Part shown: positions 24,659 through 27,364 of the stretch, one piece after another
Layout: every line of letters begins with the position of its first letter
How positions within the stretch are numbered: position 1 is the stretch's first letter
The notes under the pieces: model-generated
The model's input: only the letters and a program-made list of their open reading frames with translations
Databases searched by the model: none
Told to the model about the DNA's origin: nothing
Translations under genes and position numbers: made by a program
DNA from: Archangium gephyra
GTDB lineage: Bacteria > Myxococcota > Myxococcia > Myxococcales > Myxococcaceae
Length of the DNA: 64,000 bases
Direction: 5' to 3'
Assembly: GCF_001027285.1 (NCBI RefSeq)
Contig: NZ_CP011509.1
Span: 6,844,501 to 6,908,500, forward strand

Positions 24659-25384
24659 ATGCCAACAGCCGTCATCACCGGAGCGGGCATCCGGCTCGGC
24701 AAGGCCATCGCCCTGGCGCTGGCCGAGGCCGGGTACGACCTGGCCCTGCACGTCCACCGCTCGACCGAGGGAGCGGAGGAGGTCGCCACCCGGGCCCGTG
24801 CCCTGGGACGCACCGCCACGGTGCACCGCGCCAACCTGGGAGACCCGAAGGAGCTGGAGTCGCTGGCGGCCTCCCTGCGCGCGGCCCACCCCGCCATCGA
24901 CGTCCTCGTGAACAACGCGGGCATCTTCGAGCGGGTGGCCTTCGAGGACATCACCCGGGAGCAGTACCACCGGATGATGGGAATCAACCTGGAGGCGCCC
25001 TTCTTCCTCACCCAGGCGCTGCTCCCGGCGCTGCGAGCCGCTCCCCAGCCGCTCGTCGTGAACCTCACCGACATTGGCGCGGAGCGGGTGGTGAGCCACT
25101 ACGCCCACTACACGGCCAGCAAGGCCGGGCTGATCGCGCTCACCCGGGCACTGGCGGTGGAGCTCGCGCCCCGGGTGCGGGTGAACGCCATCTCTCCAGG
25201 GACGGTCATCTTCCCGGAGGACTACGACGAAGCCGCCCGGCGGGAAACGCTCGCCCGCATCCCCCTCGGACGGGAGGGCTCGGCCGAGGACATCGCCCGG
25301 ACCGTGGTCTTCCTGGCACGCGAGGCGCCCTATATCTCCGGACAGGTGATCGCCGTGGATGGAGCCAGGAGCGCCCAGCTATGA
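24659..25384 (+). CDS. pteridine-reductase-like short-chain dehydrogenase (FolM/PTR1 type)
   Basis: NADPH-dependent SDR of 241 residues. The cofactor motif is TGAGIRLG, with Arg where classical SDRs have Gly. This TGxxxRxG form is the mark of pteridine reductases such as PTR1 and FolM. Other SDR elements are VNNAG, the active-site YTASKAG (Tyr-x-x-x-Lys) and the C-terminal SGQVIAVDGA. FolM-like enzymes reduce dihydromonapterin or dihydrofolate. This fits the next gene (FolB domain), with which it overlaps by ATGA. GAGGGGAGA lies nine bases before the ATG. Exact substrate not determinable from sequence. Confidence 0.85.
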   Translation: MPTAVITGAGIRLGKAIALALAEAGYDLALHVHRSTEGAEEVATRARALGRTATVHRANLGDPKELESLAASLRAAHPAIDVLVNNAGIFERVAFEDITREQYHRMMGINLEAPFFLTQALLPALRAAPQPLVVNLTDIGAERVVSHYAHYTASKAGLIALTRALAVELAPRVRVNAISPGTVIFPEDYDEAARRETLARIPLGREGSAEDIARTVVFLAREAPYISGQVIAVDGARSAQL

Positions 25385-26217
25385 ACCGCCTTTCCTCCGA
25401 TGCCTTCGCGGCCGCCCCCCGCGACGCGCAGGGCCGCCCCCTGGATGTCATCGAGCTGCGCCAGCTCCCGGTGAATTGCATCGTCGGGGTGTACCCGGCC
25501 GAGCGCGGTACGCCGCAGCCGCTGGAGCTCGACGTGGCCCTCTATCTGGACACCCGGAAGGCCGCCGCCGAGGGGAGTCTCCGTGACACGGTGGACTACG
25601 CGCGGCTGTCCGGCGAGCTGCGCTTCCTGCTGGAGTCGGCCGACTTCCGCATGCTGGAGACGGCCGCCGAGGCCCTCTGCCGCTACATCCTCGCCCCGCC
25701 CACGGACGACTCGGCGCGAGCCCCGGTACGGGCCGTCACCCTGCGGCTGTCCAAACCGGAAGCCCTGGGCCGGGCGGGCCTCGCCTCGCTGCAGGTGCAC
25801 CGCACGGCGGAGGAGTACCGCTTCGAGGTGGAGGAGAAGCCCTTCGGACGGGTGGACATCGTCTTCCAGGACGAGCACGTGGGCATCTACCGGCTGCGCA
25901 TCGCCCCGGGCCGCACCATCCCCACGCATGAGCACCGGGTGATGAGCGAGTCCGAGCTGGTGCTGGGCCACGGGCTGCTGCTCCAGGGCCGGCCAGTGCT
26001 GGCGGGCACGGGCTTCCGGTGGCCGAAGCACCTTCCGCACCGCTACGACAATCCGCGGGCGATCGAGCAGACGGTGCTGTGTGTGGACCGTCCGGCCTTC
26101 ATCCCCCATGACGAAGTAGAGGTGCCCGAGCCCGCCGGTGGACTGGTGCCCGTGGAAGGCCGGGCGTACTACCCGGCGGCGGCGAGCACGCCGGAAGCGG
26201 AGGGCGAGCGGTGGTGA
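25381..26217 (+). CDS. dihydroneopterin aldolase (FolB) domain fused to a cupin domain
   Basis: A 278-residue two-domain protein. Residues about 18-135 form a FolB/dihydroneopterin aldolase fold: IELRQLPVNCIVGVYPAERGTPQPLELDVAL, then DFRMLETAAEAL and LRLSKPEAL with the conserved Lys-Pro. Residues about 140-250 look like a cupin: VGIYRLRIAPGRTIPTHEHRVMSESELVLGHGLLLQGRP, where His-x-His, Glu and a later His could bind a metal. FolB proteins normally end after about 120 residues, so the cupin is an addition. Both ends overlap neighbouring SDR genes (ATGA and GTGA), implying translational coupling. The cupin may act on, or sense, a pterin; this is inference. Confidence 0.85.
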   Translation: MNRLSSDAFAAAPRDAQGRPLDVIELRQLPVNCIVGVYPAERGTPQPLELDVALYLDTRKAAAEGSLRDTVDYARLSGELRFLLESADFRMLETAAEALCRYILAPPTDDSARAPVRAVTLRLSKPEALGRAGLASLQVHRTAEEYRFEVEEKPFGRVDIVFQDEHVGIYRLRIAPGRTIPTHEHRVMSESELVLGHGLLLQGRPVLAGTGFRWPKHLPHRYDNPRAIEQTVLCVDRPAFIPHDEVEVPEPAGGLVPVEGRAYYPAAASTPEAEGERW

Positions 26218-26999
26218 GCACCCGGCCAGTGGGGACACGGAAGGTGCTGGTGACGGGCGGGGGCAGCGGCATGGGCCTCGCGGTGGCCGAAGCACTGCTG
26301 CGAACCGGAGGCCGGGTGGCGGTGACGGGGCGCCGGGTGGAGCGGCTGGAGGCGGTGGTCCGCGCCTGGCCCGGTCAGGCCGTGGCCCTGCCCTGCGATC
26401 TCGCCTCCCCTTCCGAACGCACGGGCCTGTTGGCGCGGGCCCGTGACGCGCTGGGCGGGCTGGATGGCCTGGTGCACTCGGCGGGGGTGGTGGAGCACCA
26501 GCTCCCCGGTCACATCTCCGAGGAAGCGCTGCGGGCCCAACTGGAGCTCAACCTGGTGGCCCCGCTGCGCCTGGGCGAAGAGGCGCTGTCGCTCCTGGAG
26601 GACGGAGGGGGCATGGTGTTCATCGCCTCGACGCTCGCCCTGCGGCCACTGCCCACCAGCGCCGTCTACAGCGCGGCCAAGGCCGGATTGCTGGCGGCGA
26701 TGCGCTCACTGGCCCTGGCGGGCGCCCTACGGCGCATCCGGGCCAACGCCGTCTGCCCGGGAGTGGTGGACACCGAGATGGTCCGGGCCCCGCGCCTGAG
26801 CCCCGGCGAGCCGCCTCCCGAGGGCGAGGAGCTCGAGCGGAGGATCTCCGCCCAGTTGTCCACGCTGGGGGCGTTGCATCCCCTGGGGCGGCTGGGGAAG
26901 GCCGAGGAGGTGGCCGAGGCGGTGGTGCACCTGCTGTCGGCCCCGTGGACCACCGGCAGCGAGCTGGTGATCGACGGAGGGATACTGCTGCGCGAGTGA
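26214..26999 (+). CDS. short-chain dehydrogenase/reductase
   Basis: Classical SDR of about 261 residues with the NAD(P) motif TGGGSGMG, Arg after the second strand (TGRR, suggesting NADPH), CDLAS, a VHSAGV variant of NNAG, and the active-site YSAAKAG. The C-terminal TTGSELVIDGG is typical of the FabG-like group. The start is GTG at 26211 or 26214; the latter gives a four-base overlap with the FolB-cupin gene. Its place as third gene of the coupled pterin cluster suggests a pterin- or sugar-linked substrate, but the sequence itself is generic. It ends two bases from the stop of the convergent queD. Confidence 0.85.
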   Translation: MSTRPVGTRKVLVTGGGSGMGLAVAEALLRTGGRVAVTGRRVERLEAVVRAWPGQAVALPCDLASPSERTGLLARARDALGGLDGLVHSAGVVEHQLPGHISEEALRAQLELNLVAPLRLGEEALSLLEDGGGMVFIASTLALRPLPTSAVYSAAKAGLLAAMRSLALAGALRRIRANAVCPGVVDTEMVRAPRLSPGEPPPEGEELERRISAQLSTLGALHPLGRLGKAEEVAEAVVHLLSAPWTTGSELVIDGGILLRE

Positions 27000-27001
27000 G
27001 C

Positions 27002-27364
27002 TCAGTCGTTCTCGCCGCGGTAGATGCAACCCGAGGTGCAGGTCTCGCGCACCATCACCTGGGAGAGCAGCGGGAGCCGGGGCCGCACGCGCTGCCAGAT
27101 CCACCGCGCCAGGTTCTCGCTGGTGGGGTTGGAGAGCCCCTCGAGCTCATTGAGGTAGTAGTGATCGAGCTGGGCGTGCACCGGTTTGAAGGCCTCGGTG
27201 AGATCGGCGAAGTCCATCACCCAACCCGAGTCCGCCCCCACCGGACCCTGCACATGCAAGGTCACGCGGTAGGAGTGGCCATGCAACCGGGCGCACTTGT
27301 GCCCCGCGGGCACGTTGGGGAGGCGATGGGCCGCCTCGAAGGTGAACTCCTTGAAGATCTCCAA
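27002..27364 (-). CDS. queD: 6-carboxy-5,6,7,8-tetrahydropterin synthase (QueD/PTPS family)
   Basis: Converts dihydroneopterin triphosphate to 6-carboxytetrahydropterin in queuosine synthesis. The 120-residue protein has zinc ligands His13, His28 and His30. The catalytic Cys24 is in the CxxxHGH motif (C-A-R-L-H-G-H) that separates QueD from mammalian-type 6-pyruvoyl-tetrahydropterin synthases. [10 protein letters not shown] and the C-terminal Glu in [11 protein letters not shown] complete the site. No other queuosine gene is nearby. It converges with the pterin cluster of two SDRs and FolB-cupin, sharing the pterin theme. Confidence 0.93.

Follow-up and report, generated by a model that had tools for sequence, protein, structure and literature searches.

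A gene of Archangium gephyra was found to encode a fusion of dihydroneopterin aldolase (DHNA, FolB) with a cupin domain, possibly the sign of an uncharacterised route to reduced pterins. DHNA, a drug target of the folate pathway, normally comprises ~120 residues. The gene lies in a stretch of 64,000 nucleotides of contig NZ_CP011509.1 (assembly GCF_001027285.1, positions 6,844,501 to 6,908,500), referred to here as the window, and plain coordinates below are those of the window. The protein carries the catalytic residues of FolB and the candidate ligands of a cupin metal site, and its gene overlaps a short-chain dehydrogenase/reductase (SDR) gene on either side.

25381..26217, + strand: FolB-cupin fusion gene, 278 amino acids
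25444..25806, + strand: FolB (dihydroneopterin aldolase) domain, residues 22-142, with E41, Y73, E93 and K125
25825..26130, + strand: cupin domain, residues 149-250, with candidate ligands H183, H185, E192 (E190 adjoining) and H220

Conservation of the two-domain protein

An open frame by itself proves nothing for a fusion at this locus, because the high-GC frame is already open far upstream (an open reading frame, ORF, of 1077 amino acids). Chance read-through of a long GC-rich frame was ruled out by conservation and by the ratio of nonsynonymous to synonymous substitution rates (dN/dS). Each of the 106 fusion profile matches presented a single open frame, and dN/dS was below 1 in both the FolB half and the cupin half for all 21 pairs (Nei-Gojobori). 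One genome is represented twice among the 106 copies (L004 is identical to L149), and the copies of G154 and G121, which are cut by contig ends, are left out. Flags reading "1 TGA/TAG stop inside" were considered as signs of a FolB/cupin split and dismissed, as the ORF ended a few residues from the alignment end in the flagged copies inspected. Separate FolB and cupin homologues with unrelated partners, which would have told against the first-pass annotation, were not seen. A model of the fusion (AlphaFold2, 26 sequences) presented both folds, with a predicted local distance difference test score (pLDDT) of 91.0 and a predicted template modelling score of 0.90. The first-pass annotation had read FolB and cupin in one frame, and the Pfam FolB match, the cupin residues, the two-fold model and the conservation establish this fusion as genuine.

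A profile of 26 copies matched 122 of the 195 genomes of the phylum. The two-domain form was present in 91 of the 195 (97 rows, six genomes having two), the rest being FolB-only or short matches; this figure is a manual tally of rows scoring at least 198 bits, of which two are truncated at contig ends. Among 395 genomes of Bacteroidota, the profile matched 129, three of them at two-domain scores, and further matches came from more Flavobacteriales and from two metagenome-assembled genomes labelled proteobacterium. Carriage of the fusion on plasmids was rejected: 14 plasmid records matched, none covering 80% of the query, and the 10 matches listed covered the FolB half only.

The FolB domain and the folate genes of the genome

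The FolB domain matched Pfam PF02152 over residues 24-137 at 80.9 bits, against a cut-off of 31.8 (E 1.2e-22), and reached the NCBIfam domain model TIGR00526 (55.4 vs 45.05 bits); the FolX model PRK11245 was not reached (15 bits, cut-off 152). E41, Y73, E93 and K125 aligned with E21, Y53, E73 and K98 of the E. coli enzyme (2o90), and all four catalytic/anchor residues are thus present. Published work on E. coli DHNA (PMC4176595) assigns Glu21, Glu73 and Lys98 to one subunit and Tyr53' to the neighbouring subunit. Residues 18-145 of the model matched DHNA structures at Z ~11.5 over 117-119 residues (VIA-align). The four residues were complete in 98 of the 106 copies; the eight copies that depart from this are paralogues, found in four genomes of a single genus. 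From its fold, residues and single-copy status, the domain is predicted with high confidence to act as an aldolase/epimerase on 7,8-dihydroneopterin.

The window genome (G000) is a single contig of 12.49 Mb, whose nearest named relative among the matches was Archangium violaceum Cb vi76 (94%). FolB was matched once, by the fusion, and HPPK, GTP cyclohydrolase I and DHFR were also matched once each. As the only FolB match alongside these folate enzymes, the fusion is the best candidate for the housekeeping folate aldolase and probably fills that role. The same observation weakens the idea of a special-purpose FolB; most likely, the fusion serves folate as well. SDR1, the upstream reductase, was rejected as the sole dihydrofolate reductase given the presence of DHFR (PF00186). 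The only match to the 6-pyruvoyl-tetrahydropterin synthase (PTPS) family was QueD.

Biopterin_H matched G000 in two pieces within one open frame. This diverged, phenylalanine hydroxylase-like protein (G000:C1:1090631-1091437) occupies a 530-amino-acid frame, and similar matches were seen in many family genomes. Two further genomes with a FolB-cupin had an additional FolB or FolB-like gene: a plain FolB ~1 kb downstream of a Biopterin_H match (L177, G001), and a degenerate-looking FolB-like ORF of 242 residues (L190, G197).

The cupin domain

In the window protein the Pfam Cupin_2 model (PF07883) scored weakly, at 14-17 bits and below its cut-off of 27.2, and no NCBIfam match was found for the cupin domain at 0.1. 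Among 21 scanned cupin domains of the family, 19 matched Cupin_2 at E <= 0.1 (best 5.8e-8), and six matched Pfam MannoseP_isomer (best E 1.9e-4). The residues G177-x5-H183-x-H185-x4-E190-x-E192 and P215-x4-H220-x3-N224 bear out the His-x-His/Glu/His pattern noticed in the first reading of the sequence. H183, H185, E190, E192 and H220 were jointly present in 63 of the 106 copies; hereafter, copies are termed ligand-complete when H183, H185, E192 and H220 are all present. N224 was found in 63/63 of these, and W214, N224, Q202 and R173 were each kept in 61-63 of them.

Residues 151-250 were modelled with pLDDT block means of 93-98 and formed a double-stranded beta-helix. The top structural match of residues ~149-250 was phosphomannose isomerase (7zvy, Z 13.0, 1.7 A over 99 residues; VIA-align), followed by DddK (Z 12.2), KdgF (Z 12.0), YxaG (Z 11.6) and a putative cysteine dioxygenase (Z 11.2). 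DddK, within 1 Z of phosphomannose isomerase, ties with it by the rule of VIA-align. The best sequence match in the PDB, also a sugar-phosphate isomerase, was weak (E 0.02). The region is a genuine cupin with a predicted metal site, and for its modelled fold an isomerase reading is a preference among close structural matches. One locus (L011) considered as a standalone cupin homologue was rejected as a chance local match; its ORF is presumably a HIT-family protein.

Neighbouring reductases and QueD

24659..25384, + strand: SDR1, candidate pteridine reductase of the PTR1/FolM/PruA type, with R12, D138, Y151 and K155
26211..26999, + strand: SDR2, classical SDR with TGX3GXG and S-Y-K; start GTG at 26211 or 26214
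27002..27364, - strand: QueD, 6-carboxytetrahydropterin synthase with a Cys-type motif; convergent neighbour, outside the operon

SDR1, the fusion and SDR2 overlap head to tail, with a divergent gene upstream of the block and QueD facing it; the two overlaps and the facing queD had been described in the first-pass annotation. The SDR1 stop and the fusion ATG share 4 nt as ATGA, and the SDR2 start overlaps the 3' end of the fusion gene by 4-7 nt (fusion TGA at 26215-26217).

SDR1 had been called pteridine-reductase-like, and its residues agree: the window motif TGAGIRLG conforms to TGX3RXG, YX3K is present, and the Asp, Tyr and Lys are in place. The Arg of TGX3RXG is given as specific to pteridine reductases in PMC13259868. 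R-D-Y-K was retained in 75 of 76 SDR1 relatives of the examined loci, the remaining alignment falling short of the Arg. SDR1 is kin of E. coli FolM, and not close (31% over 134 amino acids, E 3e-18, two-sequence comparison); its best NCBIfam match, the pteridine reductase equivalog NF006598, was below cut-off (230.3 vs 288 bits). From these motifs, it may be suggested with moderate confidence that SDR1 reduces dihydro- to tetrahydropterin. For SDR2, the G, S, Y and K residues were present in 32/32 relatives.

SDR1 adjoined the fusion in 74 of the 106 copies, distant phylum members included. SDR2 did so in 32/106 (one of them a weaker match, L160, 39%), both SDRs in 28/106, and a facing QueD-like gene lay within 5 kb in 12/106. 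By these counts, all three genes occur in this order in a sub-lineage only. The conservation of gene order that the first-pass annotation proposed to check is thus partial, the pairing with SDR1 being the more widespread. Its view of the whole block as one pterin-processing unit stands in part: the SDR1 residues and a pterin-like neighbourhood in two phyla support it, and the full order and the facing QueD-like gene are found in a minority of copies.

Loss of the cupin site and its possible link to SDR2

The cupin ligand set was complete in 63 and incomplete, with part or all of it lost, in 43 of the 106 copies. This ligand-poor group includes the loss of only one ligand (for example G029, G045 and G052), as well as L174-L176 (G184-G186), where FolB is followed by a region with gapped ligand columns. 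The FolB E/Y/E/K set was kept in 61/63 ligand-complete and 37/43 ligand-poor copies. With the cupin site lost from so many copies in which FolB is intact, the cupin appears to have a second function that can be separated from that of FolB. Across 13 ligand-poor pairs, dN/dS was 0-0.38 in the FolB half and 0.13-0.63 in the cupin half, which was the less constrained half in 10 pairs (the exceptions were two g11 pairs and one g15 pair). Parsimony placed six changes of cupin state on the tree.

SDR2 adjoined 32/63 ligand-complete copies and 0/43 ligand-poor copies (Fisher 8e-10, relatedness ignored). SDR2 was also sought at genome level, at E <= 1e-55. Of the 31 tested genomes whose cupins are all ligand-poor, 30 gave no match, and of the 16 tested family genomes with a ligand-complete copy, 10 gave one; this search covered chosen, non-random genomes and scored at most 53 of 32-190 candidates per genome. 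Two genomes with two copies each (G136 and G137) had the ligand-complete copy beside SDR2 and a QueD-like gene, and the ligand-poor copy beside SDR1. In G046 and G038, SDR1, SDR2 and a facing QueD were found in the window order with the fusion gene missing between them; fusion copies, a ligand-complete one among them, lie elsewhere in these genomes. The tie between the cupin site and SDR2 is suggestive, with too few independent events.

The fusion loci of Bacteroidota

All seven Bacteroidota loci (L007-L010 and L212-L214) presented the same order: a RibD_C reductase, a protein of the triphosphate tunnel metalloenzyme (TTM) fold, and the fusion. They represent six genomes, as L008 and L214 belong to one genome, and L007-L009 are near-identical.

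L009:2960-3646, L010:1032-1706, L213:7538-8182: RibD_C-family reductase
L009:3646-4206, L010:1724-2293, L213:6810-7379; also in L007, L008, L212, L214: TTM-fold protein directly before the fusion

RibD_C scored E 1.5e-19 to 4e-18 in the three proteins scanned, and this enzyme may stand in for SDR1 as a pterin reductase. The TTM-fold protein, of 187-190 residues, had no family match above cut-off and no CYTH match in Pfam. Its model presented the triphosphate-tunnel fold (pLDDT 82.3; Z 17.4 to 2dc4 and 15.5 to 7ns9), and E-x-E-x-K (E10, E12, K14) was invariant in 5/5 proteins. It is therefore put forward, on its predicted fold, as a candidate dihydroneopterin triphosphate phosphohydrolase. In a 2007 article (PMC1971073) this enzyme was called open for most bacteria, and a later one (PMC5526541) names an E. 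coli Nudix enzyme for the step. Fusion clusters with a possible triphosphatase thus offer candidates for this activity in genomes without a recognisable FolQ.

An SDR lay next to or near the cluster in six of the seven loci, the contig ending in L008. The SDR of L009 had sepiapterin reductase 2bd0 as its best PDB match, nearly full length (E 1.7e-27; next 1.9e-24). Relatives of this type adjoin the fusion in L007, L010 and L214, which with L009 gives four of the seven Bacteroidota loci, and also in L006.

Proposed function and alternative explanations

Tentatively, we favour a bifunctional protein that couples an active FolB aldolase/epimerase to a cupin side-chain isomerase feeding an SDR. 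The FolB domain would make 6-hydroxymethyl-dihydropterin for folate and would also epimerise its substrate to dihydromonapterin, which SDR1 would reduce to the tetrahydropterin. The cupin, as a metal-dependent isomerase of the phosphomannose-isomerase/KdgF kind, would take the dihydropterin bound or released by FolB and convert a hydroxyl of its polyol side chain to a ketone. A partner SDR (SDR2, or the sepiapterin-reductase-like SDR of the four Bacteroidota loci) would reduce this ketone, so that the unit could yield a fully reduced pterin cofactor without PTPS. Within this scheme all catalytic activities are inferred, as are the substrate of the cupin and the step assigned to SDR2. The isomerase and SDR steps are suggested by three observations: isomerase cupins rank top in the structural and the weak sequence matches, absence of the cupin site tends to coincide with absence of SDR2, and a sepiapterin-reductase relative adjoins the fusion in another phylum. 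If so, the fusion and its reductases would be candidates for tetrahydropterin cofactor synthesis in bacteria without a dedicated PTPS.

Several observations weigh against this proposal. The fusion did not reach the NCBIfam folB equivalog TIGR00525 (49.2 vs 72.15 bits), and 9 of 58 family genomes gave no FolB match, among them G051, of the same genus as the window genome. HPPK was matched in all nine except G002 (78% complete). G051 has HPPK and DHFR, but neither the fusion nor either of the two SDRs was matched there at the thresholds used, and FolB in this genome is either replaced or dispensable. A DMSP (dimethylsulfoniopropionate) lyase and dioxygenases stand among the PDB matches of the cupin, 1-2 Z below the top. 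No sepiapterin reductase was found among the 29 PDB matches of SDR2 at E <= 1e-22; L212 and L213 have SDRs of a different type (31-33% to the L009 SDR); and L006, 10.5 kb from a metagenome-assembled genome labelled proteobacterium, has the fusion and an L009-type SDR, while no relative of the RibD_C or TTM-fold protein was found in it. As for the link between the cupin and SDR2, three pairs on supported branches counted as independent in the tree test (sign test, p 0.5), and 31/63 ligand-complete copies had no adjoining SDR2, some of them at contig ends (for example L102). In G053 an SDR2 orthologue occurs although the cupin is ligand-poor, and in G130, G014, G011, G148, G016, G036 and G070 the cupin is ligand-complete and SDR2 gave no match.

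A serious, if rather unlikely, competitor is an ordinary folate aldolase whose cupin has no catalytic role and serves to stabilise the octamer of FolB or as a sensor of a ligand or metal, SDR1 and SDR2 being merely operon mates. The ligand-poor cupin halves would suit a structural part, as they still evolve at dN/dS below 1 in the 13 pairs above, and most of these copies keep FolB complete. Such a role leaves the joint retention of the metal-site residues in two phyla, and of W214, N224, Q202 and R173, unaccounted for, and a scaffold would not predict that ligand loss accompanies SDR2 absence.

The close structural matches admit a different chemistry, in which the cupin, as an oxygenase or other lyase resembling quercetinase, DddK or cysteine dioxygenase, would oxidise or cleave the pterin or help to dispose of glycolaldehyde, with SDR2 acting on that aldehyde. 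DddK, YxaG and the putative cysteine dioxygenase all score near the top, and glycolaldehyde is described as a by-product of FolB in PMC7993393. We regard this explanation as improbable: the top structural and weak sequence matches are isomerases, and FolB persists in the ligand-poor lineages in spite of the missing cupin site, which argues that by-product removal by the cupin is not obligatory.

A dedicated FolX/FolM-like tetrahydromonapterin unit without a folate role, tuned by the cupin, would fit the FolM/PruA-like SDR1 so often adjoining, the diverged Biopterin_H protein and the folate made or obtained without the fusion in G051, and is very unlikely given that the fusion is the only FolB match in G000, that it falls far short of the FolX model, and that 7 of 20 fusion-bearing genomes (a set mostly picked for non-adjacent SDR1) keep the fusion with no SDR1 match at E <= 1e-45.

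Paralogue pairs with complementary half-sites

The eight FolB copies with incomplete residues belong to four g15 genomes (G046, G038, G015 and G030), each with exactly two FolB matches. Copy A (L129, L145, L167 and L169) has lost Glu41 and Lys125 and kept Tyr73; copy B (L164, L165, L166 and L168) has kept Glu41 and Lys125, with Tyr73 replaced by Trp, Leu or Asp. The two faces of the site were compared using the contacts listed for E. coli DHNA in PMC4176595, a residue being counted as kept if present in at least 5% of 83 reference copies. Copy A kept 8/8 of the donor face and 7-8 of 18 in the pocket face, while copy B kept 15/18 of the pocket face and 4-6 of 8 in the donor face; seven control copies kept 15-18 of 18 and 7-8 of 8, respectively. 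When the face labels were permuted, each A/B pair gave p 0.004-0.012, but these four pairs are non-independent. Copy A was skewed by itself (L129 p 0.007, L167 p 0.009), and copy B by itself was not significant (L164 p 0.63, L166 p 0.15). Copy A was also more diverged elsewhere, with 69-71 of 92 other positions kept against 81-88 in controls.

Because each active site joins a pocket face with the donor face of a neighbour, these patterns predict an A/B heteromeric aldolase with working sites at one kind of interface only. Alternatively, both copies may be decaying because the aldolase is dispensable, as G051 may show; dN/dS of the g15 FolB halves was 0.06-0.25. The predicted heteromer would be well suited to testing how complementary half-sites evolve.

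Relation to known systems

The fusion shares its fold and E/Y/E/K residues with FolB of E. coli (2o90) and M. tuberculosis (1nbu), from which the same reaction and a two-subunit site may be supposed. Unlike a plain FolB, it adds a C-terminal cupin of ~110 residues and sits in an operon with SDRs, not folate genes. FolB joined to another enzyme is known from a FolK-FolB fusion of Bifidobacterium longum, mentioned in PMC1971073, and from the bifunctional aldolase of S. pneumoniae (2cg8); in those proteins the partner is the next folate enzyme and not a cupin. Literature listings of openly licensed works yielded no paper on a FolB-cupin.

As in FolX-FolM and PruA systems, a FolB-superfamily enzyme is paired with a TGX3RXG SDR, but the fusion scores as FolB and not FolX, is the only FolB match, and has the extra cupin and SDR2. 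The route from PTPS to sepiapterin reductase (biopterin) resembles the proposed logic alone, namely a metal-dependent side-chain rearrangement followed by an SDR on the ketone; the fusion has the FolB-cupin and not the PTPS fold, and its proposed substrate is a dephosphorylated pterin. A more speculative extension, which we consider doubtful, is a third bacterial tetrahydropterin route beside PTPS/sepiapterin reductase and FolX/FolM. A TTM-type triphosphatase would strip dihydroneopterin triphosphate, the FolB-cupin would epimerise and isomerise the free side chain at two sites, and an SDR would reduce the ketone. Within a single genus of myxobacteria, the FolB half would be an obligate heteromer of two paralogues, each supplying half of every working site.

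Other PTPS/QueD-like genes near the fusion

In g5 and g16 loci, G013 and G018, a PTPS/QueD paralogue with a Cys motif followed the fusion by 67-854 nt on the same strand, with 34-38% identity to the window QueD. Neither QueD nor the g5/g16 PTPS was accepted as a PTPS-III replacement of FolB, as the Cys-type motif is kept. A same-strand gene of this different type, 67-854 nt downstream, was observed in L114, L117, L119, L120, L126-L128, L130, L133, L140, L141, L143 and L144. In G070, a PTPS/QueD-like gene lay 10 nt after the fusion, with 65% identity to the window QueD.

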